The notes beneath the pieces are model-generated. The model was not told the DNA's origin, made no database searches, and saw nothing but the letters and a program-made list of their open reading frames with translations. Of a stretch of DNA of 44,620 nucleotides, positions 2,864-22,761 are shown one piece after another. The DNA comes from a virus. The stretch covers positions 1 through 44,620 of IMG/VR virus record IMGVR_UViG_3300013372_003156; one strand, 5' to 3'. The translations under genes and the position numbers were made by a program. Each line of letters begins with the position of its first letter. Position 1 is the first letter of the stretch.

Positions 2864-5800
2864 ATGGCAACTAAGTTTCAGATTAAAAGATCGTCTGTAT
2901 CTGGACGTACGCCTAATACTACCAATGCTGCAAACTCATCCTATATTGCAGCCGGTGAGCTAGCGCTAAACTTAACTGATAAGAAGATGTATTCTTCTAA
3001 TGGTACCAATTATTTTGAAATTGGTTCCTTTAAGGTTGAGCAAACCAATTCAACGTCCAATGTTTCTACATTTACAGAAATTTCTACACTCCAGTTTGAT
3101 GAGGATAGTGGATTTGCTGTCACTAGTCCATCAACTGGTGTTGCCAAGATTGCTATCAATAGCACATTTAAATTCTGGCAAGTAGATGGGGTACAGAAGC
3201 TAACTGCAGCTGGTCTAGATACAGTAAACTTTATTGGTGGCAATAATATTAGCATTACTGCTAATGGCGCCAACACGCCTCAGTCTATTGCCTTTGCTAC
3301 CTCAATGACACCAACATTTACTAGTGTCACATTTGGCAATAGTACTGTCAACACAACAATCAATTCATCGTCTATTGCTGTCACAAAAATATTTGCTAAT
3401 GGTGTTACAGGGTCAGCTGGCCAGGTATTATCAGCAAATAGTACTGGTGGTATTTATTGGGAAACTAGTGCTGGTGGTGCTGGCACACTTACTGTAACAA
3501 GTGATACATTCAATGGTAATGGCTCCAACACAATTTTCACTCTATCAACATCATCCACAACAGATAGATCATTTGTATATCTAAATGGTGTTCAGCAAGC
3601 ACCAACAACAGACTACACAATTTCAGGAACAACATTAACATTTGTAGTTGCGCCACCTAGTGATAATGTTATTGAAGTTAGATCATTTGATATTCCATCA
3701 ATTGCTGACATTACTGTTACAACAGACACATTTACAGCAAACGGAACACAAACAAACTTCACTCTATCAACCCCAGATTCTTCTGTGACTAATTCGTTGG
3801 TATTCCTTAATGGCGTGACACAAGTACCAACAACTGATTATACCTTATCTACTACAACATTAACATTTCTCTCAGCACCAGTTAATGGCACTGCAGTCCA
3901 AGCAATCAGCTTCACCTCAGCTGGTGTTAAGTCCGCTGCATTTACTGGTAATGGTAGCAACACTCAGTTTACATTGCCTGTCATATCAACAACATCAAAA
4001 ACAATTGTTGCCATTAATGGTGTTACCCAGACACCAGTAACAGATTATAGTGTATCTGGTACAACATTAATATTTGCTGTTGCTCCAGTTAATAATGATA
4101 ATATTCTTGTTAGAGTGTTACCATCGAAGGTAGATTCAGCTGGTGGTAATACACAAATACAATACAACAAGTCTGGCTCACTTGGTGGGTCAGCTGGCTT
4201 TACATTCAATGATACTACTAACAATGTTGTAGTTGGCAATACATTAACTGTACCAAACTTTATTCTCAATGCCTCTAACCCACCTGCCAACTCAACCTCA
4301 ACAGGTACAACAGGTACATTTGCATGGGATAGTAGCTTTTTCTATGTTGCCACTGGTACAAATACTTGGAAGAAGGTTCCAATCACAACAGATGGTGCTG
4401 GTGGTGGATCACCAGGTGGATCTAATACACACATTCAGTATAATGACAGCAACACTTTTAATGGTTCTGCAGCATTTACTTTTAATGAATCTACCAACAC
4501 TGTTACTCTAAGTAATACTCTTGCCATTGGTAGCAATGTAACAGTTAATACTAGCACAATCTTTATTGGTAATAGTTCTGTTAATACCACAATCACTGCT
4601 GGTAATGTCCATCTGCAAGGTACCCAGCTAACAGTTGGCAATGTTGTACTGACAGGCGAGCAGCTTACTGTTGGTAATAGTACTGTCAATTCAGTTATCA
4701 GAGCAAACGGTGCCACATTTAGTGGCCACTTAATGCCATCTGCTAATGTTACCTACGACATTGGTAACTCAGCTATGCGTTGGAGAGATTTGTGGTTGTC
4801 TGGCACCACAATTAATCTCGGTGGTGCCACTATTAAGACAGACACCGATACTGGCGCCATTGCCTTTGTTCCTAAGGCTACAGCAGATGTACCAAATCCT
4901 AAGGCTGTTGTAGTATCGCCGCGTGGTGGTATTCAAGCTGTGGATACAACTGATGGTGTGCCTGTTATCAATAATTCAATTACAGTTGTAGATGGTATAT
5001 CATACGGCAACTCTACAGTTAATACTACTATCAACTCAACATCTGTATCTACTGTAGTATTGAATGTTGGTTCTAATGTTTTTGTCAACACAAGTACTAT
5101 ACATCTTGGCAACTCTACAGTCAACACTGTCATTCATACAACAGGCTTTACTGGTAATGGTGCTGGCTTACATAGCGTTAATGCTGCTGCACTAGAAGGG
5201 AATACAGTTGCCAATATCTTAACAGCTGCCAACACTGCTGCTAATACATTGGCCAATGCCGCATACTCTAATGCAGTATCTTATGCTGCATCTAACACGT
5301 ATGTTAATAACACATTCCTACCACTAGCTGGCGGCACATTAACTGGTGCCATTACAGTTGGCAACTCTACTGTCAATTCTGTTGTCAATAGTACATCTGC
5401 ATCCCTTGGCAATACTACTATTACTGGATTTGTTAATGTATCATCCAATTTAACCGTTACATCTGTAGCAGCATTTGGCAACAATGTTACAATCACAGGT
5501 AACCTAATTGTTACTGGTACAAGAATATTTGCTAATACAACAACTGTTGATTTGAGTGATAATATTATTACATTGAATGCTGATATAGGTGCAGGTGTTC
5601 CATCAGAAAATGCTGGGCTAGAAGTCCACAGAGGGACTAGTGCCAATGTCCAATTTGTTTGGAATGAAACAATTGATAAATGGACATTTACAACAGATGG
5701 TACTAACTATGTAACCGTTGCTTCTAATAATGATGTTACAACTGCCTATAGTAATGCTATTGCCTATTCAGGTAATGCAGCTTTAGCTTATGCTAATGCT

Positions 5801-7261
5801 ATTGCATATGCTGCTTCTAACTCATATGTTAATAGTACATTTGCTCCTCTGAGTGGCGCCACATTTACTGGAGCAGTTTCTGGTATCACAACTTTGGCAG
5901 CTGGCAATACTACAATTACTGGCTTTGCTAATGTATCAACTACATTACAAGTAGGTACAAACACAGCAACATTTGGTACTGCTCTTTATGTTGTTGCTAA
6001 TGGTGGTGTTGGCATCGGCACGGCGAGTCCGGCTACGAAGTTGGAAGTGACTGGCGACATTACGCAGACATGGGCTGCGTCGATGGACAGGTTTGTTGGC
6101 TCCAAATTTAGCACGACCTACGAACTGGGGTTGCACTTCATTGAGGCAACCAGAGAAACACGGATTGTCAGCAAAGCGGCAGACAGCACAGGGTTTATTT
6201 CTTTTTATACCGGCGTTACTCCAACGGTAAGGGCAGTCATCGACTCCTCCGGCAACCTCGGCATCGGCAATACAGCACCTAATGCAAGGCTGCATGTTAC
6301 GCAATCCACAACAACTGCCGCTTCCTTAACGTGGGGAGCTGCAGCTGGTCAAATCTTTAGAAATGAAGACTCAGAGCTTGCATTTGGATTGTCAAGCTCT
6401 TCTCCGTATCCAATATATCTTCAAGCAAGAACAAATGCTAGTGCAGTTAGACAAATTGCGCTCAATCCTCTAGGGGGTAATGTTGGTATTGGAACGCTTG
6501 ATCCTACAATATCTTCCGGATCTGGCTTACACATTAATAGTGGTTCTGGTCATGGTGGTTTGAAGTTACAATCAACAGGAAGAACATTTGAATTACTTAG
6601 TACATCAGGCGGATACTTTACAGTATACGATACAACAGGGGGTGCAGATAGATTATCTATTGCAGCTAATGGTAATGTCGGTGTTGGTACTACCTCACCA
6701 GGTTACAAGCTAGATGTCAATGGAACAACAAGTGTTGGTTACCTAAGAGTGGCACCTCAGGATGGGTCCTCCGAGGGCGGCGAGATACAGCTTGTGGGTG
6801 CTAGCTCTTATGGGACATTGCAGATTGATAATTTCCAAGGTAATGCTAGAATACACACATTAGCATCAGGTAAGGTATTTCAAGTAATCGGGGGCACGTT
6901 AGATGTAACAGGCACAGGTGGCTCAAGTTCATTTGCTGCCAATGTTAATGTCACCGGAACTCTTAGCTGTACTACCTTGACGGAAACATCCTCTATCACC
7001 TTCAAAGAAAATGTAAATCCAATTTCAAATGCTCTTGATAATATTACTAAACTTGTTGGTGTTACATACGACCGTAAAGATGGGTCGGCAAAACAAAAGG
7101 CTGGTTTAATTGCTGAGGAAGTTGAACAAGTATTGCCTAATGTTGTACAAAAAGATAATGATGGTAATCCGTCATCTATTGCATACACCAACCTAATTGC
7201 GTATCTTATTGAATCAATTAAAGAACTAAAACAAGAGATTGATATCTTAAAGGGCAAGTAA
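2864..7261 (+). CDS. Long tail fibre with C-terminal S74-type intramolecular chaperone
   Basis: This 1465-residue protein starts with a module (residues 1-55) found again at the start of the 10710 gene and probably serves to attach the fibre. Three copies of a roughly 60-residue module follow (about 205-420): Phe-x-Gly-Asn-Gly-x-x-x-x-Phe-Thr-Leu, then a Val-Tyr-Leu-Asn-Gly-Val turn, then Asp-Tyr-x-x-Ser-Gly-Thr-Thr-Leu-Thr-Phe. A long Asn/Thr/Val-rich shaft comes next, then four copies of a Gly-(Val/Ile)-Gly-(Thr/Asn)-x-x-Pro-x-x-x-Leu-x-Val motif typical of S74-tailed fibres. The last ~90 residues (from about 1375) match the Peptidase_S74 auto-chaperone: a Phe-Lys-Glu-Asn start, Tyr-Asp-Arg-Lys, Gly-Leu-Ile-Ala-Glu-Glu-Val-Glu and a C-terminal coiled coil. 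In that family the domain trimerises the fibre and cleaves itself off. A GC-rich patch at 6001-6300 suggests mosaic acquisition. Confidence 0.85.
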   Translation: MATKFQIKRSSVSGRTPNTTNAANSSYIAAGELALNLTDKKMYSSNGTNYFEIGSFKVEQTNSTSNVSTFTEISTLQFDEDSGFAVTSPSTGVAKIAINSTFKFWQVDGVQKLTAAGLDTVNFIGGNNISITANGANTPQSIAFATSMTPTFTSVTFGNSTVNTTINSSSIAVTKIFANGVTGSAGQVLSANSTGGIYWETSAGGAGTLTVTSDTFNGNGSNTIFTLSTSSTTDRSFVYLNGVQQAPTTDYTISGTTLTFVVAPPSDNVIEVRSFDIPSIADITVTTDTFTANGTQTNFTLSTPDSSVTNSLVFLNGVTQVPTTDYTLSTTTLTFLSAPVNGTAVQAISFTSAGVKSAAFTGNGSNTQFTLPVISTTSKTIVAINGVTQTPVTDYSVSGTTLIFAVAPVNNDNILVRVLPSKVDSAGGNTQIQYNKSGSLGGSAGFTFNDTTNNVVVGNTLTVPNFILNASNPPANSTSTGTTGTFAWDSSFFYVATGTNTWKKVPITTDGAGGGSPGGSNTHIQYNDSNTFNGSAAFTFNESTNTVTLSNTLAIGSNVTVNTSTIFIGNSSVNTTITAGNVHLQGTQLTVGNVVLTGEQLTVGNSTVNSVIRANGATFSGHLMPSANVTYDIGNSAMRWRDLWLSGTTINLGGATIKTDTDTGAIAFVPKATADVPNPKAVVVSPRGGIQAVDTTDGVPVINNSITVVDGISYGNSTVNTTINSTSVSTVVLNVGSNVFVNTSTIHLGNSTVNTVIHTTGFTGNGAGLHSVNAAALEGNTVANILTAANTAANTLANAAYSNAVSYAASNTYVNNTFLPLAGGTLTGAITVGNSTVNSVVNSTSASLGNTTITGFVNVSSNLTVTSVAAFGNNVTITGNLIVTGTRIFANTTTVDLSDNIITLNADIGAGVPSENAGLEVHRGTSANVQFVWNETIDKWTFTTDGTNYVTVASNNDVTTAYSNAIAYSGNAALAYANAIAYAASNSYVNSTFAPLSGATFTGAVSGITTLAAGNTTITGFANVSTTLQVGTNTATFGTALYVVANGGVGIGTASPATKLEVTGDITQTWAASMDRFVGSKFSTTYELGLHFIEATRETRIVSKAADSTGFISFYTGVTPTVRAVIDSSGNLGIGNTAPNARLHVTQSTTTAASLTWGAAAGQIFRNEDSELAFGLSSSSPYPIYLQARTNASAVRQIALNPLGGNVGIGTLDPTISSGSGLHINSGSGHGGLKLQSTGRTFELLSTSGGYFTVYDTTGGADRLSIAANGNVGVGTTSPGYKLDVNGTTSVGYLRVAPQDGSSEGGEIQLVGASSYGTLQIDNFQGNARIHTLASGKVFQVIGGTLDVTGTGGSSSFAANVNVTGTLSCTTLTETSSITFKENVNPISNALDNITKLVGVTYDRKDGSAKQKAGLIAEEVEQVLPNVVQKDNDGNPSSIAYTNLIAYLIESIKELKQEIDILKGK

Positions 7262-7263
7262 TA

Positions 7264-8142
7264 ATGGCTACCCTAAAGAACACCACAATTAATGATACTG
7301 GCCACATAACTTTACCATCTGGCACTACAGCTCAGAGGCCTGGTAGTCCAGCAGCTGGAATGGTTAGACACAATTCCAATACTAACTTAGTCGAGTGGTA
7401 TACAGGTAGTGCATGGGTAACAGTTACCCAGCCTGTTAGTGTGCAGCCTCCTGTTGTTTCCACAAATTTGTTGGTTCATTTGGATGCTGGTAATACATCA
7501 TCATACTCAGGATCTGGAACAGTATGGAGTGATCTAAGTGGCAACGGTAACCACTTTAATATCGTAGCAACTGCCTATAACAGTTCAGGTCCTAAGTATA
7601 TGGACTTTAATGGCAGCTATGGTATAGCCAAAAATGGTGGTGATATTTCTCTATCTGATGCAACTGGCGTTACATATTGCGTGTGGACTAGAGTATTAAA
7701 TTCTGCTAGTACCTGGAGAACATTGACAAGATCATATGTCAATGACCACCACGTAATCATACAAGCGGGTGGTTGGCAGATAGGAATGTATGATAACGAT
7801 AGTGTAGGATTTATAGATTCAGGATATTCACAGCAGAGCTTGCCAAATTATGGTACATCCAATTGGGTTGCATTATACTGGAGATGGCAGTCATCAAGCC
7901 CATACTATGAAATATCATATAATGACACACCTAGCACTATTAGAGGTTCAATAACTAATGCCAATGCAAGATACAACAGAGGATTTGGTAGTATAGGTGC
8001 TTATCATAATGGAGATACCAATCCAGCTAACGCTTCTCAATTTTGGGGTGATATTGGTGTCTTCATGGCTTACAATAGAAGGCTAACGGATGCTGAGCTA
8101 ACCCAAAACTATAACTTTTACAAAACAAGATTTGGTCTATAA
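7264..8142 (+). CDS. Tail-fibre paralogue with LamG/concanavalin-like C-terminal domain
   Basis: The 292-residue product starts two bases after the fibre stop and opens with a ~55-residue module shared with the next two genes (Met-Ala-Thr-Leu-Lys-Asn-Thr, Ile-Asn-Asp-Thr-Gly, Thr-Ala-Gln-Arg-Pro-Gly, Arg-His-Asn-Ser). The rest (about 70-292) resembles a concanavalin/LamG-like jelly roll: Leu-Val-His-Leu-Asp-Ala-Gly-Asn at the start, Trp-x-Asp-Leu-Ser-Gly-Asn-Gly-Asn, and at the end the Phe-Met-Ala-Tyr-Asn-Arg-Arg-Leu-Thr-Asp-Ala-Glu-Leu segment usual in phage LamG domains. Such domains bind sugars, so a receptor-binding role is likely. Its last codon overlaps the next start (TAATG), which implies translational coupling. 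Confidence 0.75.
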   Translation: MATLKNTTINDTGHITLPSGTTAQRPGSPAAGMVRHNSNTNLVEWYTGSAWVTVTQPVSVQPPVVSTNLLVHLDAGNTSSYSGSGTVWSDLSGNGNHFNIVATAYNSSGPKYMDFNGSYGIAKNGGDISLSDATGVTYCVWTRVLNSASTWRTLTRSYVNDHHVIIQAGGWQIGMYDNDSVGFIDSGYSQQSLPNYGTSNWVALYWRWQSSSPYYEISYNDTPSTIRGSITNANARYNRGFGSIGAYHNGDTNPANASQFWGDIGVFMAYNRRLTDAELTQNYNFYKTRFGL

Positions 8143-9224
8143 TGGCAACTCTCAAAAATACAATTATTAATGATACAGGTCATCTGACGCTACCAGTTGG
8201 TACCACTGCCCAAAGGCCTGGAACACCTGCTAACGGAATGATTAGACATAATTCGAGTACAGGTCTTATTGAAATGTATGCTAGCGGACAGTGGGGATCA
8301 GTTGCATCGGGGTGGGATGCAACTGGAGGATCTATTTTAACTGTTGGTGATTTTAAAATTCATACATTTACTTCCTCAAATACATTTGTTGTGACATCCT
8401 TTGGCTCAACAATTGAAGTGCTTGTTGTGGGTGGTGGTGGTGCCGGTGGCTTTGGTCATGGTGGAGGTGGTGGAGGTGGCGCTGTACTGTATCATGCCAA
8501 TCTTGCTGTAACTGCAACAAGTTATTCAATAGTAATAGGAGCTGGCGGCTCTCAGTCCCTTAATAATGCAGCTAATAACCCAGGTGCCTCAACTACTGCT
8601 TTTGGTGTAACAGCTACTGGCGGGGGCAGTGGTGCTAATGAGTTATATGATGACACATCTGGTAGAGGCGGAGTTGGTGGCAATGGTGCTAACAGCGGTG
8701 GTGGTTCCTATGGTAACTCTAATGCAGGTACCGCTACTGCCCCATCTGCACCTGGTTGGACTGTCTATGCCGGTAATGCTGGGGCTAGAGGATATGCCTT
8801 GGTAGGCTACAACTATGGTTGTGGTGGTGGCGGAGGTGCTGGTGGCACTCCTGCACAGCCCGACAACATAGATGGTGGTAATGGCGGTAATGGTGTTTTA
8901 ATTAACATTGATGGCAACAATTATCTTTGGGCTGCAGGAGGTGGGGGTGTTGTGTATTCCCAAGGTGGTACGCATGGTCATGCTGGCTACGGCGGTGTTG
9001 GTGGTGGTGGTGCCGCCACGGTTTGGGGGGAAGGAGCACTAACACTTGGTAGTGGTGGTGGACAAGGAATTAGTACAGGTGGGAATGGCACACTAGCTAA
9101 TGATGGTGCTGGTGGGTCTGGAGGAACAAACACAGGCAGTGGTGGAGGTGGTGGCGCCAACGAAAACGGTATTGGTGGTGCTGGTGGGTCTGGCATAGTA
9201 ATAGTTAGATACAAATTTAGATAA
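8142..9224 (+). CDS. Glycine-rich tail-fibre/adhesin paralogue A
   Basis: A 360-residue protein. Residues 1-55 are the same N-terminal module as in its two neighbours. Next come a short beta segment with His-Thr-Phe-Thr-Ser-Ser-Asn-Thr-Phe and Val-Glu-Val-Leu-Val-Val-Gly-Gly-Gly, and then about 240 residues dominated by Gly runs. It ends in Gly-Ser-Gly-Ile-Val-Ile-Val-Arg-Tyr, a hallmark of the phage glycine-rich domain. In T-even gp38-like adhesins, Gly runs form packed polyglycine-II helices; a similar fold here is inference. There is no clear Shine-Dalgarno: the start overlaps the previous stop, so expression is probably coupled. It is strongly similar to the next gene across most of its length. 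Confidence 0.75.
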   Translation: MATLKNTIINDTGHLTLPVGTTAQRPGTPANGMIRHNSSTGLIEMYASGQWGSVASGWDATGGSILTVGDFKIHTFTSSNTFVVTSFGSTIEVLVVGGGGAGGFGHGGGGGGGAVLYHANLAVTATSYSIVIGAGGSQSLNNAANNPGASTTAFGVTATGGGSGANELYDDTSGRGGVGGNGANSGGGSYGNSNAGTATAPSAPGWTVYAGNAGARGYALVGYNYGCGGGGGAGGTPAQPDNIDGGNGGNGVLINIDGNNYLWAAGGGGVVYSQGGTHGHAGYGGVGGGGAATVWGEGALTLGSGGGQGISTGGNGTLANDGAGGSGGTNTGSGGGGGANENGIGGAGGSGIVIVRYKFR

Positions 9225-9225
9225 A

Positions 9226-10314
9226 ATGGCAACACTTAAAAACACAATTATTAACGACACTGGGTTTATTCAATTGCCATCAGGCAATACAGCCCAGAGA
9301 CCAACTGCATCTAACGGTATGATGCGATTTAGCTCAAGCAATAACACTCTTGAAATGTATGCAAATGGTCAATGGAATACAATTGTACCACAATCAAGCA
9401 AAGTAACTGCTACGGGCGGAACAATTAGCTCTGCTGGTGGATATACTATTCACACATTCACATCATCAAATACATTTACTGTCACTGCAGCTGGTAGCGC
9501 TGCTACAGTAGAGGTTTTGTTAGTAGCTGGAGGTGCAGGTGGTGGTGGGGCCCTTGGCGGTGGCGGTGGAGGGGGTGGTGTTATATACATGCCTGCTGTT
9601 ACAGTAACTGCAACAAGTTACTCCATTGTGGTTGGTGGTGGCGGGGCCGGTGGTGGTGGATATGGAAGCGGAGCGAGCGTCAGTGGTGCTAACACAACAG
9701 GATTTGGGGCAACAGCTGCTGGTGGTGGGGGATCGGGAACCCATGACTCGGGTGATGGTGTAGCTGGTGGATGTGGTGGTGGCGCTGCCTCAAACAACGG
9801 AAGAATTAACCAAGGTGGTGGTAGTTCAGGTAATAGTTTAGGTTCTAACAGGGGTACAATTTACGGTAACAGAGGTGGCAATATGACCGCTGCTCGTACT
9901 GGTACCCCTACAGCAGCTGCTGGTGGAGGTGGAGCCGGAGGTGCTGCTCTTGATACAAATTCTAATCTCACCTCTGGTACAAGGTACCATGGCAGAAGTG
10001 GTGGTGGTATTGGTATGATTAGCAACATTAATGGAACAAGCTATTATTGGGCTGGTGGCGGTGGCGGTGGTGTATACACAGCTGCTGTTGGTGGTTATGG
10101 TGGATTTGGTGGCGGTGGCGGAGGCTCAACTAATGAGCTTGGTGGTGGACTTGGTGGTACAGGGGGCATTAATAATGGTGCCAGTGGTGCATTAAATAGT
10201 AATGGTGGTGCTGGTGGCACTAACACTGGAGGCGGCGGGGGCGGCGGATCGTGGTCTACCTACTCTGGTGGTAATGGTGGTAGTGGTATAGTTATTGTTA
10301 GATATTTGGCTTAG
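9226..10314 (+). CDS. Glycine-rich tail-fibre/adhesin paralogue B
   Basis: A 362-residue tandem paralogue of the preceding gene, starting one base after its stop. It has the same N-terminal module (residues 1-50), the same entry segment (Thr-Gly-Gly, then His-Thr-Phe-Thr-Ser-Ser-Asn-Thr-Phe-Thr-Val), Gly-rich blocks and the same Ser-Gly-Ile-Val-Ile-Val-Arg-Tyr end. The Gly blocks differ in length and in the inserted polar loops between the two copies, as expected for host-recognition loops. Tandem duplication followed by divergence, or a pool of alternative tips that recombine with each other, would explain the arrangement. A role as a receptor-binding tip is inferred. Confidence 0.75.
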   Translation: MATLKNTIINDTGFIQLPSGNTAQRPTASNGMMRFSSSNNTLEMYANGQWNTIVPQSSKVTATGGTISSAGGYTIHTFTSSNTFTVTAAGSAATVEVLLVAGGAGGGGALGGGGGGGGVIYMPAVTVTATSYSIVVGGGGAGGGGYGSGASVSGANTTGFGATAAGGGGSGTHDSGDGVAGGCGGGAASNNGRINQGGGSSGNSLGSNRGTIYGNRGGNMTAARTGTPTAAAGGGGAGGAALDTNSNLTSGTRYHGRSGGGIGMISNINGTSYYWAGGGGGGVYTAAVGGYGGFGGGGGGSTNELGGGLGGTGGINNGASGALNSNGGAGGTNTGGGGGGGSWSTYSGGNGGSGIVIVRYLA

Positions 10315-10323
10315 GAGACTTAA

Positions 10324-10701
10324 ATGGGACATTTTGCAAAAGTAGTTGATCAAATTGTTGTAACAGTAATAGTTGCTGAGGCTGATTTTATTGCAACCTT
10401 AGAAGACGCTAATAGTTGGATTCAAACTAGTTACAATACTAGAGGTGGCATCCACTATATGCCAAATAGTATCACACCAAGTGATGACCAATCAAAAGCT
10501 TTAAGAAAGAATTATGCTGGTATAGGTTACACTTATGACAGTGAAAGAGATGCGTTTATTCCTCCCAAACCTTACCCAAGCTGGTTATTAGATGAGACAA
10601 CTTGCTTATGGATTGCACCAAAGGTAAAACCATCAAATAATAAAATGTATAAGTGGAATGAAGAGTTGCTCGATTGGGTCGAATACATCATGGGTCAATA
10701 A
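10324..10701 (+). CDS. Small conserved marine-phage fibre-associated protein
   Basis: A 125-residue product preceded by GGAGA at 10315. It begins Met-Gly-His-Phe-Ala-Lys-Val-Val and ends with a Trp-containing block. The segment Arg-Lys-Asn-Tyr-Ala-Gly-Ile-Gly-Tyr-Thr-Tyr-Asp, followed by Asp-Ala-Phe-Ile-Pro-Pro-Lys-Pro-Tyr-Pro-Ser-Trp, is one I recognise from many marine T4-like phages, where the protein sits among tail-fibre genes and has no assigned function. A canonical copy usually starts with a longer variable loop. It may cap or decorate a fibre, or assist its assembly, but nothing in the sequence shows which. Confidence 0.7.
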   Translation: MGHFAKVVDQIVVTVIVAEADFIATLEDANSWIQTSYNTRGGIHYMPNSITPSDDQSKALRKNYAGIGYTYDSERDAFIPPKPYPSWLLDETTCLWIAPKVKPSNNKMYKWNEELLDWVEYIMGQ

Positions 10702-10709
10702 ATAATTAA

Positions 10710-11810
10710 ATGGCAACAACAGGTAAAATAGAACGAACAGACATTCCGGGCGCAGTCCCAAATGTCACTGACAGTTCTAACACATCATATATTGAACCAG
10801 GTGCATTGTTTATCAATGTCACTGACCAAAAGCTATACTCCTCAAATGGGTCAAATTACTTTCAGATTAGTGGATCGGGCGGCGGCTCTGCTAATGTTTC
10901 TGTTGTATCTCAAACGTTTACTGGCAATGATACCAACACGCAGTTCACCCTCTCAACATCTGCTAATACATCTAGAACATTTGTATTCCTAAATGGTGTT
11001 GCCCAGGTACCAGTTACAGATTATTCCATCACAGGAACTACTCTAACATTTGTTACAGCGCCAGCCAATACTGATACTATTCATGCCCATATTCTTGATA
11101 TCAGTAATCCAAATGATGTTGAGTTTACATTTGATAGCTTTATAGGCAACAATACTAATACCCAGTTCACTCTTGGTTCATCATTAGCATCTAATTCTTA
11201 TGCGTTAATATTCCTCAATGGTGTTGCTCAAGTTCCCACAGCAGATTATGGTGTATCTGGAGCAACATTAACATTTACAGTTGCCCCAACATCTACAGAT
11301 AACATTAATATTGTTGGCATTAATGCTGCCGACAACTTGATGGCAACAACATTTACAGGAAATGGTTCAGCAACAAACTTCACATTAACTGACCCATCAA
11401 CAACTAACAAAACATTTGTTTATCTTAATGGTGTTGTCCAGAGGCCAACAACAGACTTCTTTGTTACAAATAAAACTCTTACATTTATTACGGCGCCGGC
11501 AAATAATGATGTTATTACAGTAAGAACCTTCTTTTATAGGCTAGATGCTAGCGGCACAAATACATATGTCCAGTTTAATGACTCAAATGACATTAGTGGA
11601 TCGCCTGGGTTTACATTTAATAAAACAACAAATAATGTGGTAGTTGCCAATACGCTAAGCATTGCTCAGCTAACATTCACAGCTTCCAACCCTCCAGCAA
11701 CGGCTGTTTATCCTGGGGTAGCTGGAACAATAGCATGGGATTCAAATTACATATATGTTTGTGTTGCAACTAATACATGGAAACGTGTTGCAATTGCTAC
11801 TTGGCCATAG
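10710..11810 (+). CDS. Short tail-fibre protein sharing modules with the long fibre
   Basis: A 366-residue protein. Residues 1-50 repeat the N-terminal module of the 2864 fibre (Tyr-Ile-x-x-Gly ... Lys-x-Tyr-Ser-Ser-Asn-Gly-x-Asn-Tyr-Phe). Three ~65-residue copies of the Phe-x-Gly-Asn ... Phe-Leu-Asn-Gly-Val ... Thr-Leu-Thr-Phe module then follow (about 65-130, 135-205, 210-275). The end carries a Val-Gln-Phe-Asn-Asp-Ser module and a Ala-Ser-Asn-Pro-Pro-Ala ... Ala-Trp-Asp-Ser-Asn-Tyr-Ile-Tyr-Val ... Thr-Trp-Lys-Arg-Val block; both are also present internally in the long fibre. It looks like a shortened relative that keeps the attachment and shaft modules but lacks the S74 tip. It probably attaches at the same site or forms a joint. 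Confidence 0.75.
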   Translation: MATTGKIERTDIPGAVPNVTDSSNTSYIEPGALFINVTDQKLYSSNGSNYFQISGSGGGSANVSVVSQTFTGNDTNTQFTLSTSANTSRTFVFLNGVAQVPVTDYSITGTTLTFVTAPANTDTIHAHILDISNPNDVEFTFDSFIGNNTNTQFTLGSSLASNSYALIFLNGVAQVPTADYGVSGATLTFTVAPTSTDNINIVGINAADNLMATTFTGNGSATNFTLTDPSTTNKTFVYLNGVVQRPTTDFFVTNKTLTFITAPANNDVITVRTFFYRLDASGTNTYVQFNDSNDISGSPGFTFNKTTNNVVVANTLSIAQLTFTASNPPATAVYPGVAGTIAWDSNYIYVCVATNTWKRVAIATWP

Positions 11811-12068: not shown

Positions 12069-15000
12069 ATGCCAAATAAGCTGTTCTTCAATGACAACGG
12101 TACTCTAAGAGAAGCCGAAATTCTAAAAGTTAATGACGGCGGTATTCTCCGTACTGTTAGGGATGCCTTTGTTAATGATAATGGTACACTAAGACAAATT
12201 TTCTCTGCTACCAGAGAAACTATTTACGAAACATCCAGAACAACTACATTTGACACTGTCATTGTTACAACATTTGATACGGCTGTAAGCACAAACAAAA
12301 ATACAACCACAGCATATGTTACGTTTTACGAGTCAGCATTTGGTACAAGCAAGCAAACAGCTACTAGTAAAAATACATCTACAAATAGATCCACTGCCTA
12401 TGCTACAACAAAAACAACTGCCACTGTATTTGATACATTAACTGTATTTGAAACAACAATTGGTACAAATAGAGTAACATCTACTAGTAGGGCCACAACT
12501 ACAGTATTTGACACAAACACTATATTTGATACAACAATCAATACAGCAAGAAACACAGCAACAGAAGTTCTAACAACGTCTGTATTTGATACAGTTATTG
12601 GCACTAACAGAAGCACAACATCTGTATTTAATACTACAACTGCATTTCAAACTACAACTGCATTTGAAACTGCCTATGCTACTACTACAGTATTTGGCAC
12701 AACAACAATATTTGATACAACAATCAACACTGCCCGCGACACGGCAACCTCTAGAGCCACAACAACAATTTTTGATACAGTATCAGTATTTGATACAACC
12801 ATTGGCACAAATAGAGTAACATCTACAAGTAGAGCCACAACTACAGTATTTGATACAACATCAGTATTTGATACAACAATCAACACTGCTCGCAATACAG
12901 CAACCTCTAGATCAACAAATACAGTATTTGATACTGGCTATGATACATCTAGAATAACAAATACTATCTTTAATACTGGTACAATTAAGGACACAGTTAT
13001 TGATACAAGTAAAGCAACATCTACAAGTCGTGCAACATCTACGGTGTTTGCAACTGCCTATAACACAACAAAGGCTACTGCAACATCTAGAGGAACAGAT
13101 ACAATAATTGATACATCTAGAGCAACTGCGACATCTAGAACTACCGATACTATAATTGATACAAGTAGAGCAACTGAAACATCTAGATCAACAACCTCAA
13201 CATTTGATACCACAACAACATTTAATACTGCCTACGGTACTACAACAACATTTGATACCACGACAACATTTAATACTGCCTATGGTACTACAACAACGTT
13301 TGATACAACTACTGTATTTGCAACAACAACTACGTTCATTACATCTCTTATTACAACAACTGTATTTAATACAACTTCTGTATTCAATACAACAACAACG
13401 TTTATTACATCTCTTATTACAACAACTGTATTTAATACAACATCAGTATTCAATACAATAACTACGTATATTACTACGCTTGTTGCTGCTACAAATAGAG
13501 CAACAGATACATCTAGAGGTACAACAACCGTATTTGCAACAACAACATCATTTGCTACTGCTACAACATTCTACTTCCAAACAACAACATCCAGAGCAAC
13601 AGGCACAAGCGTCGGTGGCAGTACAATAACATCCAGAGCAACAGGCACAAGCGCCGGCGGCGGCACAAGTTTCAATACAATAACATCATTTGCTACTGGC
13701 ACAAGCGTTGCTGGTAATACATCGTTTATAACATCATTTAATACTTCTAATATTACATCTAGAAATACAACATTCTTCTTCCAAACAACAACATCATTTG
13801 CTACTAGTACAACATTCTTCTTCCAAACAATAACAGCATTTCCTACTATTACAACCGCCGGTGGTAATACAACATTTATTACTACGCTTGTTGCTGGTAC
13901 AACAGCTGTTGCTGGTACATCTCGTAACACAACATTCTACTTTAATACAACTACAATATTTGTAACGCAATTTGAGACATTGTATAGCTATGGATATTTT
14001 AAGGGTCAGCCACTCCAGGCTCCAAGAGCTACTTTTACAGGCACATCAAGGGCTACTGGCACAACATTGGTTGCAATTACATCTTTTAACACAACATTCT
14101 ACTTTAACACAACATTCTACTTTAACACCTCTAGAGCTACAACATTCTTCTTTAATACAACAACATCAAGAGCAACAGGCACAAGCGTTGGCGGCAGTAC
14201 AATAACATCCAGAGCAACTGGCACGAGCGCTGTTGCTGGTACATCATTTATTACAACATTTATTACATCTAACATTACCTCTAGAGGTACAACATTCTTC
14301 TTCCAAACAACAACATCACTTGCTACTATTACATCTAGAAATACAACATTCTTCTTCCAAACAACAACATCATTTGCTACTAGTACAACATTCTACTTCC
14401 AAACAACAACATCATTTCTTACGCAAACAACCGTTGTTAATAATACGATAACATCAAGAGCAACAGATACGTCTAGAGGGACTACGACCACATTCCAAAC
14501 AACTACTACATTTAATACAACATTCTACATTATTACATCACTAGCTACTGCCACGTCTATAGTAACTGCTACATCTAGAAGTACCACATCATCCTTTAAT
14601 ACATCACTAGTTACTGCCACGTCTATAGCAACTGCTACATCTAGAAGTACAACATCATCCTTTGATACATCTAGATCAACAGATACATCTAGAACCACAT
14701 CAACATCTAGAGTAACAGATACAACAGTTAGCACATCTAGAACTACATCTACTTCTAGAGTAACAGATACAACAGTTAGCACATCTAGGGCCACAGCTAC
14801 TTCTAGAAGTACAACTACTGCATTTAATACAACTACAACATTTACAACAGCGTACGGTACAACAACTACGTTTAATACAACTACAACATTTACTACAGCA
14901 TATATAACAACTACTACATTTGATACGACTACTACGTTTGATACTGTAATTGATACAAGTAAATCTACAACATCTGTCTTTGATACAACAACAACATTTG

Positions 15001-15968
15001 CTACTGCATATCAAACATCTGATGTCAAGTCAACAAACTTTGATACATCTACTGCATTTAATACACTTGTCGTAACAAATAGAAATACAACCTCAACATT
15101 TGATACATCAACTACCTTTGAAACAGCATATGCTACAAACATAGCTACCTCTACAAATAGATCAACAACATCTGTGTTTGATACATCAACTGCGTTTGAA
15201 ACAGCTTATGATACAAACATAGCTACCTCTACAAATAGATCAACAACTTCAACGTTTGATACATCAACCACATTTGAAACTGCTTACAATACAAATAGAA
15301 CAACTGATACATCTAGAACTACAGATACAACAATTGACACATCTAGATCCACAGAGACATCTAGGGCTACTGCCACATCAAGATCTACAACAACTCTATT
15401 TGAAACAGCATATGATACAAACATAGCAACAATATCTGTCTTCAATACATCAACTACATTTGAAACAGCCTATGCTACAAATAGAAACACTTCTACAAAT
15501 AGATCAACAACATCTGTATTTAATACAGTAACAGCTTTTGAAACAACTTATGATACAAATATTCTAACATCAACATCAAGAAATACAACTTCAACATTTG
15601 ATACAGAAATTGTAACTGTATTTGATACAGTATCTGTATTTGATACAACAACAGCCTACGATACATTAATTGATACCCAGGTTGGCACAAGTAAGACGAC
15701 AAGCAGCACATACGATACAGCTTATGCAACAAACCGTAACACAGCCTATAACACTTCACGAAATACAGTATTTAACACAGCTGTTGAAACTTCTTATTTG
15801 ACAGTGTTTGATACAACAACTACATATAATACAACTACTATATTTGATACAACAACTACATTTAATACAGATTCTGGAGCTGGTACAATGGTGTCAACAA
15901 GTAAATCTACTGGTACCAGTAAATCAACTGGAACAAGCAAGGTAACATCTACATCCAGGATTTCATAA
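12069..15968 (+). CDS. Giant Thr/Ser/Phe-rich repeat protein, predicted beta-repeat fibre
   Basis: A 1299-residue protein. Residues 1-50 contain two copies of an Asn-Asp-(Asn/Gly)-Gly-x-Leu-Arg module, like the N-terminal modules of marine phage tail proteins. From about residue 57 to the end it consists of short repeats of the type Thr-x-Phe-Asp-Thr, Thr-Ser-Arg-x-Thr and Thr-Ala-Tyr-x-Thr. In the stretches I indexed, Thr and the bulky residue (Phe, Tyr, Arg) fall on every second position, with Asp, Asn, Ser, Ala and Gly in between; repeats of 4 and 6 residues keep this parity. A central part (about 490-830) uses Phe-Phe-Phe-Gln-Thr-Thr-Thr-Ser, Phe-Tyr-Phe-Asn-Thr and Gly-Thr-Ser-Val-Gly-Gly variants and is interrupted once by a unique segment near 13970-14035. 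I see no Cys or Trp. The pattern suggests a beta-solenoid or stacked beta fibre. I recognise no named family. Confidence 0.7.
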   Translation: MPNKLFFNDNGTLREAEILKVNDGGILRTVRDAFVNDNGTLRQIFSATRETIYETSRTTTFDTVIVTTFDTAVSTNKNTTTAYVTFYESAFGTSKQTATSKNTSTNRSTAYATTKTTATVFDTLTVFETTIGTNRVTSTSRATTTVFDTNTIFDTTINTARNTATEVLTTSVFDTVIGTNRSTTSVFNTTTAFQTTTAFETAYATTTVFGTTTIFDTTINTARDTATSRATTTIFDTVSVFDTTIGTNRVTSTSRATTTVFDTTSVFDTTINTARNTATSRSTNTVFDTGYDTSRITNTIFNTGTIKDTVIDTSKATSTSRATSTVFATAYNTTKATATSRGTDTIIDTSRATATSRTTDTIIDTSRATETSRSTTSTFDTTTTFNTAYGTTTTFDTTTTFNTAYGTTTTFDTTTVFATTTTFITSLITTTVFNTTSVFNTTTTFITSLITTTVFNTTSVFNTITTYITTLVAATNRATDTSRGTTTVFATTTSFATATTFYFQTTTSRATGTSVGGSTITSRATGTSAGGGTSFNTITSFATGTSVAGNTSFITSFNTSNITSRNTTFFFQTTTSFATSTTFFFQTITAFPTITTAGGNTTFITTLVAGTTAVAGTSRNTTFYFNTTTIFVTQFETLYSYGYFKGQPLQAPRATFTGTSRATGTTLVAITSFNTTFYFNTTFYFNTSRATTFFFNTTTSRATGTSVGGSTITSRATGTSAVAGTSFITTFITSNITSRGTTFFFQTTTSLATITSRNTTFFFQTTTSFATSTTFYFQTTTSFLTQTTVVNNTITSRATDTSRGTTTTFQTTTTFNTTFYIITSLATATSIVTATSRSTTSSFNTSLVTATSIATATSRSTTSSFDTSRSTDTSRTTSTSRVTDTTVSTSRTTSTSRVTDTTVSTSRATATSRSTTTAFNTTTTFTTAYGTTTTFNTTTTFTTAYITTTTFDTTTTFDTVIDTSKSTTSVFDTTTTFATAYQTSDVKSTNFDTSTAFNTLVVTNRNTTSTFDTSTTFETAYATNIATSTNRSTTSVFDTSTAFETAYDTNIATSTNRSTTSTFDTSTTFETAYNTNRTTDTSRTTDTTIDTSRSTETSRATATSRSTTTLFETAYDTNIATISVFNTSTTFETAYATNRNTSTNRSTTSVFNTVTAFETTYDTNILTSTSRNTTSTFDTEIVTVFDTVSVFDTTTAYDTLIDTQVGTSKTTSSTYDTAYATNRNTAYNTSRNTVFNTAVETSYLTVFDTTTTYNTTTIFDTTTTFNTDSGAGTMVSTSKSTGTSKSTGTSKVTSTSRIS
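12235..15960 (+). repeat. Coding array of short degenerate repeats
   Basis: About 3.7 kb of 12- and 18-base-scale degenerate units encode the Thr-x-Phe-Asp-Thr and Thr-Ser-Arg-x-Thr repeats. The hexamer TCTAGA recurs many times because Ser-Arg is mostly encoded TCT-AGA. Three zones differ in unit type: Phe-Asp-Thr/Ser-Arg, then Phe-Phe-Phe-Gln/Gly-Gly, then Phe-Asp-Thr/Ser-Arg again. Near-identical blocks recur (for example near 14700-14790), pointing to duplication within the gene. Confidence 0.75.
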
Positions 15969-16007: not shown

Positions 16008-16199
16008 ATGAGTGATGAACAAAGAGTTTGTAATGAGCAGCTTGATAAAAAGTTAGAGTCTTTTGTGGAAGTTGTCCTCCAAAAAATGATTGATCTCCAT
16101 CAGGAAATCAAAACCCTAAAAAAGAAAGTCCACGAAACTGAAAAGAAACTTCAATCGCTTCAGCAGTCAGATGATGCTGATGAGCGTATTGGCGTCTAA
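16008..16199 (+). CDS. Small coiled-coil protein
   Basis: A 63-residue product from the ATG at 16008. A GTG at 15999 is in frame, but GAGGTG at 15996-16001 is better placed as the ribosome binding site for the ATG. The sequence is highly charged and heptad-like across most of its length (Leu, Val and Ile at i and i+3/4, with Lys/Glu elsewhere), so a coiled coil is likely. It ends in an acidic tail. It overlaps no neighbour and lies between the fibre genes and two unrecognised proteins. It may be an assembly chaperone or a trimerisation partner, but this is not shown by the sequence. Confidence 0.6.
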   Translation: MSDEQRVCNEQLDKKLESFVEVVLQKMIDLHQEIKTLKKKVHETEKKLQSLQQSDDADERIGV

Positions 16200-16212
16200 A
16201 AGGAATTATATT

Positions 16213-17205
16213 ATGGTAGCCGAAGTTCCAGCAAAAGGTGGAAAGATTAAGTTCTTTAACATGTCTTCTAACGAATGGGTCAACGATGACGTGACACATT
16301 TTATGAAATCTGGTAATATGTTGCGTTCGCCAGCAAATGCAAGGTTAACAGAAATTGCTAAGTATATTCCAAAGAACCCAAATGGTTCTAAAATTGAATA
16401 TGATATCAATTACGGTAGCCCCAGTGGTACAATAGCTGGGTATAAGTTTACCGATCTATTGACGCAAATTCTCTATCTTGCACCATGCAATACAAAAATT
16501 GCAACTCAAAATATGATTGAGTGTATTCAAAAGGGGGCCACACCAGAAGGCCATAGAATTGTAGAAGCTCTAAGAGCCAACCTTACTGACAAGTATCTTT
16601 TAGATGAAGACCTAGATCTAGAATATGGTGACGTAAATGAATTAGTGCTCCTCCCAGGTACTAACTTGATTACAAAAGATGCAGTTGATTTTAACAAAGT
16701 AGAAGAACTATATAAGAACGGAGCGTGGGTCAAACTTCATCCCATCACTGCTAAAGTTTGGCAGACAATGCTAGAGCAGAGATTTAAGGGTAGAGTAGTC
16801 AAGAACGATGCCTCAATGTATCCAATTCTCAAACGAGCAAAGAAAGTATACTTCACGCTGTCCTCTGAAACAGGTTGCGCTGCTGTTATTCTTGGAAAGG
16901 GTATTGGTCTTATCGACAATAAAAATAAGGAAAGTAAGGTTGGTAAAACCTTTGAGGCAGTATACACATCATTGGATAGATGCGGTGTTAAGGATAAACT
17001 TGTTAACAAATTTGCTGCTCTTATGTCATATCCAGAGTCAGGACTAATTAGTGTTCACCACGAGAACAAAGAAGAATGTGTTCAAAGATTCTTTGATAAT
17101 ATGAAGAAGCACAAACACATTACGCTTTCCAAAAAACCTGGCGAAGTTGGTGATGATGTTATTGAAAAAGAATTGAAAGAACAAGGTGGGATGAAGCAGC
17201 CATGA
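16213..17205 (+). CDS. Unrecognised protein with GT-B-like C-terminal segment
   Basis: A 330-residue product from the ATG at 16213, with AAAAGGAA just upstream. Longer in-frame starts would overlap the previous gene and are not needed. Residues about 170-250 carry a pattern reminiscent of GT-B glycosyl- and glycerophosphotransferases: Lys-Leu-His-Pro, then Met-Tyr-Pro-Ile-Leu-Lys-Arg-Ala-Lys-Lys-Val-Tyr, then Ser-Ser-Glu-Thr-Gly-Cys-Ala-Ala-Val-Ile-Leu-Gly-Lys-Gly. The N-terminal half is unrecognised. It overlaps the next gene by ATGA, so the two are probably co-translated. Placed right after the Thr-rich fibre protein, it could modify virion proteins, but that is inference. An uncharacterised structural protein remains possible. 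Confidence 0.55.
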   Translation: MVAEVPAKGGKIKFFNMSSNEWVNDDVTHFMKSGNMLRSPANARLTEIAKYIPKNPNGSKIEYDINYGSPSGTIAGYKFTDLLTQILYLAPCNTKIATQNMIECIQKGATPEGHRIVEALRANLTDKYLLDEDLDLEYGDVNELVLLPGTNLITKDAVDFNKVEELYKNGAWVKLHPITAKVWQTMLEQRFKGRVVKNDASMYPILKRAKKVYFTLSSETGCAAVILGKGIGLIDNKNKESKVGKTFEAVYTSLDRCGVKDKLVNKFAALMSYPESGLISVHHENKEECVQRFFDNMKKHKHITLSKKPGEVGDDVIEKELKEQGGMKQP

Positions 17206-18130: not shown

Positions 18131-18871
18131 ATGGCAGTTCCAACATCCAGATCTGAATTCAAAGAGTTTTGCCTTCGTAAATTAGGTAAGCCAGTTATTG
18201 AAATTAACGTGGATGATGACCAGGTTGAAGACCGTATTGACGAGTCACTAAAGTACTATTGGGACTATCATTTTGATGGGTCTGAAAAATTGTATTATAA
18301 GCACCAAATCACGTCAACAGATATTGCCAACAAGTACATTACTCTACCAGAAAATATTATAGGTGTTGTTAAGCTATTTCCTGTTGGCCAAAGCTTAAAC
18401 ACAATGAACCTGTTCAACATTCGTTACCAAATTGCACTAAACGATCTTTATACTTTGACTACACAGTCAATGGTGCCATATGTCATGGCAATGCAGCATA
18501 TTCAGTTTCTTGAAGAGATTCTCGTTGGCCAAAAGCCTATACGCTATAGTAGACATAAAGATAGATTGTTTATTGATATGGATTGGACCCAAGCGGTAGA
18601 GGGTGAGTTTTTTGTTGTCGAGGCCTATCAGATTGTTGACCCAGATACATTTACAGATGTTTGGTCAGACCGTTGGTTAGCTCTTTATGCAACAGCCCAA
18701 ATTAAGTATCAGTGGGGCTCAAACCTAACAAAGTTCACTGGTATGGTTCTCCCAGGTGGTGTTCAGTTCAATGGCGAAAAGATTCAAGATGATGCAAAGG
18801 GAGAAATTGAAGCTCTAGAACAAGAAATGCAAACTTCATATACATTACCAGCTTACCACATGGTAGGATAA
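18131..18871 (+). CDS. 13: Neck protein gp13 (head completion)
   Basis: A 246-residue protein with the start typical of marine T4-like gp13: a Ser-Arg-x-Glu-Phe-Lys-x-Phe-Cys-Leu-Arg-Lys-Leu-Gly-Lys-Pro block, then Ile-Glu-Ile-Asn-Val-Asp-Asp-Asp-Gln and Asp-Glu-Ser-Leu-Lys-Tyr-Tyr. T4 gp13 is somewhat longer (about 309 residues). gp13 joins gp14 to seal the portal after packaging and form the neck onto which the tail docks. It is followed, one base after its stop, by gp14, and the order 13-14-15-16-17 is the T4 order. Confidence 0.9.
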   Translation: MAVPTSRSEFKEFCLRKLGKPVIEINVDDDQVEDRIDESLKYYWDYHFDGSEKLYYKHQITSTDIANKYITLPENIIGVVKLFPVGQSLNTMNLFNIRYQIALNDLYTLTTQSMVPYVMAMQHIQFLEEILVGQKPIRYSRHKDRLFIDMDWTQAVEGEFFVVEAYQIVDPDTFTDVWSDRWLALYATAQIKYQWGSNLTKFTGMVLPGGVQFNGEKIQDDAKGEIEALEQEMQTSYTLPAYHMVG

Positions 18872-18872
18872 A

Positions 18873-19541
18873 GTGGCAACTAATTTTTATTTCAATAATT
18901 TTGGTAGCAGCCAAGAGCAAAACCTAATTGAAGATCTAGTAATAGAGTCAATTAAAATCTATGGCCATGAAGTTTGGTATTGCCCAAGAACTATTGTTAA
19001 TGAGGAAAAGATCTTCAAGGAAGATGAGCTAGCCTCTTTCAATAATGCATATTCAATTGAAATGTATATTAAAAATGTTGAAGGCTTTGAGGGTGAAGGA
19101 GACTTCTTATCCAAGTTTGGTCTACAAATTAGAGATAGAATTACATTCACTGTAGCAAGAAGAACATTTGCCGATGAAGTAACTGGTGGCACAAGACCTA
19201 AAGAAGGAGACATGATCTTCTTCCCACTAACAAGTAAAGGTTATGTTGTTAGATTTGTTGAGCACGAGGCAATCTTCTATCAAATGGGTTCCCTACAAAC
19301 ATTTGATATTGTCTGTGAACTATTTGAGTTCAATCAGGAAACATTTAATACTGGTGTCGACATTATTGACGACACATATAACGATCTCAGCTTTGCAATG
19401 GCTAATAATACTCAGGTTGTTACCCAATTCAATATATCAACAATTGATAAACAAGCTCAGAACGAAGAGTTTGAAACAAGAGGTGATAATATTCTTGACT
19501 TTACTGAAATTAACCCATTCTCAGAGGCTAACACCTACTAA
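18873..19541 (+). CDS. 14: Neck protein gp14
   Basis: A 222-residue protein with a GTG start at 18873; AGGA lies four bases upstream of it and no ATG fits. It shows the gp14 pattern: Phe-Tyr-Phe-Asn-Asn-Phe at the N-terminus, Val-Trp-Tyr-Cys-Pro-Arg around residue 32, Glu-Met-Tyr-Ile-Lys-Asn-Val-Glu-Gly-Phe, Arg-Pro-Lys-Glu-Gly-Asp and Phe-Glu-x-Asn-Gln-Glu-x-Phe-Asn-Thr-Gly near the end. With gp13 it builds the neck collar. Its stop codon overlaps the gp15 ATG by one base, so translation is coupled. Confidence 0.9.
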   Translation: MATNFYFNNFGSSQEQNLIEDLVIESIKIYGHEVWYCPRTIVNEEKIFKEDELASFNNAYSIEMYIKNVEGFEGEGDFLSKFGLQIRDRITFTVARRTFADEVTGGTRPKEGDMIFFPLTSKGYVVRFVEHEAIFYQMGSLQTFDIVCELFEFNQETFNTGVDIIDDTYNDLSFAMANNTQVVTQFNISTIDKQAQNEEFETRGDNILDFTEINPFSEANTY

Positions 19542-20686
19542 TGTTTGGCAACGAATTTTATCACGAAACAATTAGACGCTACGTCATTGTGTTTGGCACA
19601 ATGTTCAATGACATGGTTGTTCATAGAAGAAACAACGCTGGTACAATCATCAAACGTATCAAGGTACCTATTGCCTATGGTCCAAGAGCAAAGTTCTTAT
19701 CAAGAATTCAGCAGGACCCAAATCTTACAAAGCCTGATGCTATTAGTCTTCCAAGAATGAGCTTTCAGATAGCTGGGTATAATTATGATGGAACAAGGAA
19801 GCTAACAACTGTGGGCCAGATTAAAACACCAGCTGACCAGGATATGAAAAACTCCTCTGTCTATAATCCTGTTCCGTACAATATAGACTTTGAATTGTCA
19901 ATCTATGTCCTAAATGCTGAAGATGGTACAATGTTAATTGAGCAGATACTGCCGTACTTTACCCCAGAGTGGACAAACACTATTAAGCTAGTTGATGATC
20001 TAGATCTTCGTATGGATGTTCCATTGGTATTGAATAACATAACAACTGAAGATACCTACGAAGATTCATATGAAAATAGAAGAACTATTATCCATACATT
20101 AAACTTTACAATGAAGGGCTATGTATTTGGTCCTGTTAAGGATAAGAATATTATCAATACAGCTCTAACAAGAACATTTGTTGCTCCTGGATTTGAAGCT
20201 GATGTTGAGACAGCCAATAGTGGACCAAATGCAGTAATTAGTGTTGGAATAACAAACGCTGGTAGCGGCTATGTCAATAATCAGATTATTACATTCTCTA
20301 ATGGCACAAGCAACAGTACTGCTAAGATTACAACAAACGCTACTGGCTCTATTACCAGCCTAGTAATACTAACTGGTGGTAACTTTGCAAATTCATCTAT
20401 TATCAGAACTCAAGTTGCTAATACTACAACTACATCTAATGCAACAAATGGTAACACTTCAGCAGGTACTGGTGCAGTATTTGATGTAACGCTTGGCTCT
20501 GAGCTATTCTACACAATTGTTACCGTAACACCTGGATTGGATGCTAATGGTGATCCAACCACAAACGCTGAAATATCAATTACCGCTAATAGTATTGCTG
20601 CTAACGATAATTGGGACTTTATTGTTACAACCAATACAAATCCTAATTTTCCAGTAGATGATCCAACAAATGACCCAGACATTTAA
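19541..20686 (+). CDS. 15: Tail terminator / sheath stabiliser gp15 with an inserted domain
   Basis: A 381-residue protein against about 272 in T4. Residues 1-225 are standard gp15: Phe-Tyr-His-Glu-Thr-Ile-Arg-Arg-Tyr near the start, Ile-Lys-Val-Pro-Ile-Ala-Tyr-Gly-Pro-Arg, Leu-Pro-Arg-Met-Ser-Phe, Ile-Glu-Gln-Ile-Leu-Pro-Tyr-Phe and Phe-Thr-Met-Lys-Gly-Tyr. Residues about 231-320 are an extra Gly/Asn/Thr-rich domain almost duplicated in the sheath protein. The C-terminal Val-Thr-Pro-Gly-Leu-Asp-Ala-Asn-Gly block then resumes the usual gp15 ending. gp15 caps the tail tube and sheath and contacts the neck. Its end lies just before or overlaps gp16, depending on the gp16 start. Confidence 0.9.
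   Translation: MFGNEFYHETIRRYVIVFGTMFNDMVVHRRNNAGTIIKRIKVPIAYGPRAKFLSRIQQDPNLTKPDAISLPRMSFQIAGYNYDGTRKLTTVGQIKTPADQDMKNSSVYNPVPYNIDFELSIYVLNAEDGTMLIEQILPYFTPEWTNTIKLVDDLDLRMDVPLVLNNITTEDTYEDSYENRRTIIHTLNFTMKGYVFGPVKDKNIINTALTRTFVAPGFEADVETANSGPNAVISVGITNAGSGYVNNQIITFSNGTSNSTAKITTNATGSITSLVILTGGNFANSSIIRTQVANTTTTSNATNGNTSAGTGAVFDVTLGSELFYTIVTVTPGLDANGDPTTNAEISITANSIAANDNWDFIVTTNTNPNFPVDDPTNDPDI
20231..20500 (+). other. ~90-residue module shared with the sheath protein (gp15 copy)
   Basis: Residues about 231-320 of gp15 align with the 23379-23652 module of gp18. The shared framework is Gly-Tyr-x-Asn, Ser-Asn-Gly-x-Ser-Asn, Thr-Gly-x-Ile-Thr-Ser, Gln-Val-Ala-Asn, Thr-Asn-Gly-Asn-Thr-Ser-Ala-Gly, and a final Val-Thr-Leu-Gly-Ser. 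Confidence 0.8.
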
Positions 20687-20699
20687 ACATAAAGAAACT

Positions 20700-22761
<2,062 letters not shown>

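Follow-up and report, generated by a model that had tools for sequence, protein, structure and literature searches.

The tail fibres of the T4 type that are known so far, among them the long and short fibres of T4 (gp34–gp37 and gp12), are parallel trimers that bind the receptor with their C-terminal end. Long beta structures of other kinds are the needle of T4 gp5, which has octapeptide repeats, and the ice-binding beta-solenoids, which present TxT motifs on a flat face and keep a constant coil length. Here we describe a protein of 1299 residues that recalls each of these systems but is predicted to follow a different plan. Its gene lies in a stretch of 44,620 nucleotides (positions 1 to 44,620 of IMG/VR virus record IMGVR_UViG_3300013372_003156; hereafter the window) from a T4-like contractile-tailed phage, in which the large terminase, the sheath, the portal, the major head protein and the sheath stabilizer were identified. 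Like the T4 fibres and other trimeric fibres, the protein appears to be a repetitive beta fibre from a tail-fibre region, with an N-terminal anchor and a variable end for host contact; in contrast to them, the variable end is predicted to lie mid-chain with both termini at the base, and no PHROG is matched. With the gp5 needle, formed by three chains about one axis (PMC4576200), it would have in common an elongated beta structure at the tip of the tail, yet the needle implies no mirror symmetry. We propose, with a probability of about 0.84, that the 1299-residue chain forms one giant antiparallel beta-hairpin fibre whose variable tip is located mid-chain.

The protein contains 466 Thr residues (36%); Cys and Trp are missing, as a first-pass annotation of the DNA had stated, and so is His. 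Searches of Pfam, PHROGs and the PDB with the protein gave no match and revealed no sequence relationship to a known fibre family, in line with the earlier statement that no named family has this design. Relatives are present in the metagenomic sequences of IMG/VR. All of them had one unique stretch amid the repeats and a similar repeat flavour on both sides of it, and the two sides were therefore compared as mirror images. The Thr face proved to be a mirror palindrome about this interruption: over 585 positions residue i has its counterpart at 1292-i, and the pairing extends from 49:1243 to 633:659 without a single insertion or deletion. The mirror correlation of Thr with Thr amounts to 0.58 (589 pairs), with its centre at 646.0 and thus within the interruption. 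When the two-, four- and six-residue units of one arm were shuffled, which keeps composition, parity and unit lengths, the correlation had a mean of 0.015 (standard deviation 0.094) and reached at most 0.23 in 500 trials; nulls of the same kind on eight proteins gave z-scores of 4.3–9.3 in 8/8 cases. In every segment of 60 residues from tip to base, zero offset was the best register or nearly so, and the offsets that won in single segments (e.g. 20, 22, 38) were local repeats, inconsistent between segments. That one register is far better than its neighbours is due to the aperiodic order of the units. An origin of the mirror by duplication or inversion of DNA was rejected, because these events yield direct or antisense peptides and not reversed ones; the natural cause is thus selection for arms that pair in antiparallel fashion. 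A log-odds mirror scan of ordinary proteins was unreliable, its scores being inflated where composition differed (unrelated frames scored up to 56), and we relied on Thr correlation and pair counts instead. The first-pass annotation had overlooked both the global mirror symmetry and the pairing rule. The unique interruption that it had noticed near 13970–14035 is real and occupies residues 634–658. Its three repeat zones are in fact arranged in mirrored order, with an outer zone, an inner zone (FYF/FFF/GG), the interruption, and again an inner and an outer zone.

The residues that face each other in this register obey a pairing code. In the window protein, 292 of the 293 mirror pairs of the Thr face are matched in class (Thr/Ser facing Thr/Ser, or two residues from outside that class, here called other:other) and a single pair is mismatched, against a mean of 143 and a minimum of 119 mismatches after permutation. 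Exactly one aromatic residue is found in 119/122 of the other:other pairs, which are made up mainly of F:R (55), Y:I (13), F:A (9), F:I (7), Y:V (6) and F:L (6), followed by F:K, F:V and F:G (5 each) and Y:K (3). The 55 F:R pairs, with F in the one arm in 30 cases and in the other in 25, exceed the permutation mean of 22 and maximum of 37 (5000 permutations), and aromatic:aromatic pairs occur once (permutation mean 30, minimum 21). Pooled counts from six proteins, unfiltered, gave the same picture (observed, with expected values in brackets): T:T 713 (398), F:R 241 (45) and Y:I 71 (5) were enriched and F:T 7 (254), R:T 1 (143) and R:R 0 (13) depleted. In held-out proteins, to which nothing was refitted, not one Thr was mispaired in L008 (194 pairs) or L009 (117 pairs). 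A set of 37 dereplicated proteins showed enrichment of F:R 758 (155), Y:R 398 (67), F:Q 349 (49), F:K 203 (42) and Y:I 97 (8) and depletion of R:R 0 (58), F:F 5 (103) and F:Y 1 (89); this set was filtered on local Thr correlation and its Thr-mispair counts are biased, unlike the unfiltered counts of the six-protein set, the held-out proteins and the window protein. Pairs of the types F:R, F:K and Y:R would fit aromatic–cation stacking, and F:Q would fit aromatic–amide stacking. The summed volume of the large-class pairs F+R, Y+I, F+K and Y+K is nearly constant (~358–363 cubic Angstrom, standard residue volumes). On the opposite face only weak preferences were found, with A:T, N:S, D:S and I:S enriched and S:S depleted. 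The short C-terminal mini-hairpin follows the code in 11/11 face pairs (F:R, Y:K, F:K, T:T), which is weaker evidence when taken alone.

The two faces themselves result from a strict two-residue parity of Thr and bulky residues, which had been noticed by hand in two stretches and holds for residues 46–1299 as a whole. Residue type and position parity share 0.40 bits of mutual information, whereas 1000 shuffles, first-order Markov sequences and second-order Markov sequences reached at most 0.03, 0.03 and 0.05 bits, respectively. The autocorrelation has the even-lag bias that had been anticipated: for Arg the ratio of observed to expected values is 0.00 at all odd lags from 1 to 29, and the bias is also strong for F/Y/R, S, N, D and A. 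Past residue 45 all Arg and Lys residues share one parity. One face thus carries Thr together with F/Y/R/K and the opposite face S, T, A, N, D, V, G and I; Thr still makes up ~20% of the latter, and the rule is seen at its strictest in R, K, F and D. In the DNA, tandem periods are mostly multiples of 6 nucleotides (18, 30, 36, 42, 48, 54, 66 and 78). This is in agreement with the earlier suggestion of an all-beta protein that has a face of Thr and bulky residues and a fibre-type anchor.

The same rule holds, not refitted, in ~40 distinct phage proteins of 324–2399 residues that have unrelated central loops; with further families gathered by two short-motif scans and two protein scans, the census comprises ~42 distinct tips after removal of two doubtful periodic proteins. 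The start of the window protein is common to L001–L003, L005 and L007 and to the families of L077 and L079. In the family that begins with MA(I/L)(Y/F)VNDSGTLR or close variants, the centre is offset from mid-chain by 14–16 in 21 proteins of 668–1535 residues, and in the L079 family by 22 in five proteins of 324–392 residues. Arm lengths hence remain equal across a more than twofold variation in protein length, and insertions and deletions must therefore be matched between the arms. Between relatives the bases of the two arms are conserved together (e.g. 99% and 95% for the window protein and its closest relative, L001) and the distal arms diverge together (16% by position); codon changes relative to L001 in the two base regions were synonymous in 46 and non-synonymous in 16 cases, and the gene is therefore regarded as being under purifying selection. 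The tips are non-repetitive, contain turn-like motifs (KGxP, PEGGT, PENGT) and are often more divergent than the adjoining arms, as in L176 and L186 with 95% identity in the arms and 52% in the tip. Changes on both sides of a pair (F:R to T:T and Y:R to R:Y are examples) were in excess in the L079 family (33 versus ~9, ~4-fold) and in the L077 family (848 versus ~399, ~2-fold) over the numbers that we estimate for sides changing independently; this excess, which is inflated by relatedness and alignment errors, may be taken as supporting evidence only. A tblastn search of cultured phages with the full protein, its anchor, L079 and L077 gave no match, to which low-complexity filtering probably contributes, and no relative of L079 was found in a collection of bacterial and archaeal genomes. 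Seven IMG/VR proteins (L068, L071, L074, L075, L081, L086 and L087) were rejected as relatives for want of a convincing unique mirror centre; with 37–56% Thr and periodic TTTTFNT-type repeats they form a separate, unexplained kind. The L029 protein (L029:2271-8588, 2106 residues) has, besides its main hairpin (44–576:662–1194), a candidate second one (1288–1431:1444–1587), beyond which several DSGAGT-like mini-turns follow.

A hairpin of the same kind occurs in the cultured Stenotrophomonas phage DLP6. Its protein AMQ65900.1 (1288 residues, annotated as 'baseplate wedge subunit') starts with a domain resembling the T4 baseplate wedge protein gp7 (Pfam PF23786 Baseplate_wedge; phrog_17744) and continues as a hairpin with its centre at 974.5 and a Thr mirror correlation of 0.65 (262 pairs). 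A separate domain of ~130 residues is inserted in the N-strand, below which a weaker match (533–574:1241–1282) suggests that pairing is resumed; a similar match is present in L030. The design with a gp7-like domain is shared by L008, L009 and L012, which have longer arms, and parity flips at the central loop in DLP6, L008 and L009. According to Pfam and PHROGs the gp7-like domain is present in DLP6, L008 and L009 and absent from the window protein, which differs from T4 gp7 in this respect, while the gp7 relatives of Caulobacter phage Cr30 and Rhizobium phage RHph_I1_18 are without a Thr-rich extension. T4 gp7 is a monomer that is present in 6 copies per tail (PMC3004832). The inserted domain (~583–711 in AMQ65900.1, and also in L030 and L031) resembles a carbohydrate-binding module, a candidate identity only. 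In L008, L009 and L012 the main hairpin is separated from the gp7-like domain by a region of the same flavour (~530–1060) with several parity flips and an inserted domain, possibly representing smaller hairpins.

From these data we infer that the mirror pairs are physical cross-strand pairs formed within one chain of extended shape. A small N-terminal domain would anchor the base of the hairpin to the tail, from where the chain would go out for ~585 residues as one strand, turn at the non-repetitive tip and return for another ~585 residues, residue i being paired with 1292-i; a mini-hairpin of 22 pairs would close the C-terminus. The 'interruption' of the first-pass annotation would be the turn or tip of this hairpin. 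On one face, Thr/Ser would be set against Thr/Ser and one aromatic residue (F/Y) against one non-aromatic residue (R, K, Q, I, L, V, A, G). The turn would zip first, and the aperiodic succession of 2-, 4- and 6-residue units would prevent the arms from slipping. A fully extended arm would measure ~200 nm (585 × ~0.34 nm, our own estimate). The protein is presumably present in virions as a thin filament that sits on the tail or the baseplate and serves adhesion, with a tip that would make the first contact with the host cell and is probably receptor-binding. We consider it likely that phages have in this way evolved a protein analogue of the nucleic-acid hairpin, in which a two-class pairing code (Thr:Thr, aromatic:Arg/Lys/Gln/Ile) sets the register of a single-chain antiparallel ribbon of up to ~700 pairs that forms a thin fibre touching the host with its mid-chain tip. 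Self-complementary arms, a central loop, compensatory changes, bulges and inserts are common to both; the comparison is an analogy only, as here protein side chains in beta pairs follow a degenerate two-class code.

Several points weigh against this proposal. We know of no precedent for an isolated two-stranded ribbon of such length, which may need coiling or partners, and no similar structure is among the solved ones. No usable model was obtained from AlphaFold2, either for the tip region aligned with 13 relatives (predicted local distance difference test, pLDDT, of 32) or for the 324-residue relative L079 aligned with 7 (pLDDT 34); as the alignments are shallow, low in complexity and gapped regardless of the mirror, this failure neither supports nor refutes the fold. 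Neither proteomics nor microscopy of a virion of this kind was found: a search of the DLP6 paper revealed no mass spectrometry, and its figure legend gives head and tail sizes alone. Finally, the rule i to c-i is identical for a hairpin and for an antiparallel dimer, so that the two cannot be separated by sequence alone.

In a first alternative, the hairpin would be coiled on itself or bundled, for instance as three hairpins, to a thicker and shorter shaft with the Thr/aromatic face as its core. Nearly all aromatic and Arg residues lie on one face, the near-constant pair volume hints at a packed core, and many phage fibres are, to our knowledge, trimers. A regularly stacked coil would, however, impose a constant superperiod, which is not found, and the gp7-fused versions are expected in single copy per wedge; we regard this arrangement as possible but less than probable. 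In an antiparallel homodimer, the N-arm of one chain would pair with the C-arm of the other and the interruption would lie in the middle of a two-ended filament. This is improbable, although it predicts the same register: in all cases the centre is a divergent loop without repeats that carries turn-like motifs, and the flip of parity at this loop in three proteins is easy for a turn. Those hairpins moreover hang on a gp7-like domain, and with the monomeric state of T4 gp7 this favours pairing within one chain.

A beta-solenoid, a triple-stranded beta-helix or an amyloid-like stack, in which the mirror would be a by-product of composition and repeats, is very unlikely. Strict parity and TxT repeats do resemble the faces of a solenoid and the TxT motifs of ice-binding proteins. 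The constant number of residues per coil is missing, however: the lag at which direct repeats match best shifts from one part of the chain to the next (20, 26, 16, 22, 12, 54 and so on; 12–54 between segments), whereas the mirror register is constant in all segments. The beta-solenoid offered in the first-pass annotation is rejected on this ground, and its stacked short hairpins or amyloid-like fibre do not agree with a repeat region that, save for the C-terminal 22-pair hairpin, consists of two arms paired antiparallel and in register. No mirror arose in the nulls, which preserve composition, parity and unit lengths, and a unique mirror centre is missing from further periodic phage proteins rich in Thr that the scan had covered. 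A disordered or glycosylated, mucin-like Thr-rich stalk would explain the low AlphaFold2 confidence and the high Thr/Ser content, but exact pairing along 585 positions, arms of equal length and compensating changes would have no role in it, and it can practically be dismissed.

Searches of the literature, confined to open-access papers, retrieved no description of such a protein, and we know of none described so far that is self-complementary residue by residue to such an extent. If the single-chain hairpin is correct, a new protein architecture can be read from sequence alone, with complementary side chains encoding the register as bases do in DNA, and it may provide a design rule for long beta fibres. 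It would also represent a group of phage appendages that has escaped standard annotation owing to low-complexity filters, the lack of a Pfam or PHROGs family and the failure of AlphaFold2, would mark the position of variable tips in many uncultured phages and would open the specificity of beta pairs to direct testing. The thousands of natural pairs would then yield a measured table of cross-strand pair preferences.

Table 1. Features of the hairpin fibre gene and its surroundings in the window.
Feature	Position	Strand	Basis
Giant hairpin fibre gene (predicted), 1299 residues	12069..15968	+	Open reading frame (ATG 12069; stop ends 15968), IMG/VR relatives, purifying selection versus L001
N-terminal anchor, residues 1–45, three xVND(N/G)GxLR-type repeats	12069..12203	+	Start conserved among relatives; anchor role predicted
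N-arm (outgoing strand), residues 49–633	12213..13967	+	Mirror-paired with 659–1243, i+j=1292 (1-based), no indel
Tip, residues 634–658, symmetry centre residue 646	13968..14042	+	Mirror analysis; tips of relatives unrelated or divergent
C-arm (returning strand), residues 659–1243	14043..15797	+	Mirror-paired with N-arm
C-terminal mini-hairpin, strands 1247–1268 and 1276–1297 around a DSGAGTM turn, 22 pairs	15807..15959	+	All face pairs follow the pairing code
Upstream tail-fibre module (S74-tailed fibre, Gly-rich and other tail-fibre-like proteins)	2864..11810	+	Genomic context
Downstream neighbour, phrog_26179	16171..17205	+	Homologue also 3' of the hairpin gene in distant L120
Neck/tail-completion (head-tail adaptor, tail sheath stabilizer) and terminase genes	18131..22761	+	T4-like myovirus context

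The hairpin gene is the last of the tail-fibre module and stands a short way upstream of the neck genes (Table 1). Its downstream neighbour, to which no function is assigned, is syntenic with hairpin genes in distant phages and might be a functional partner; the DLP6 homologue of this neighbour is the first gene of that genome, just ahead of the neck genes. Within the upstream module, three consecutive tail proteins (7264–10314) start with MATLKNT.INDTG and two of them have Gly_rich_2 domains; they are taken as recent paralogues with swapped C-terminal parts. Near the head genes, an (AAGATG)n tandem repeat is located at 27912–27992 within the open reading frame 27581–28444.

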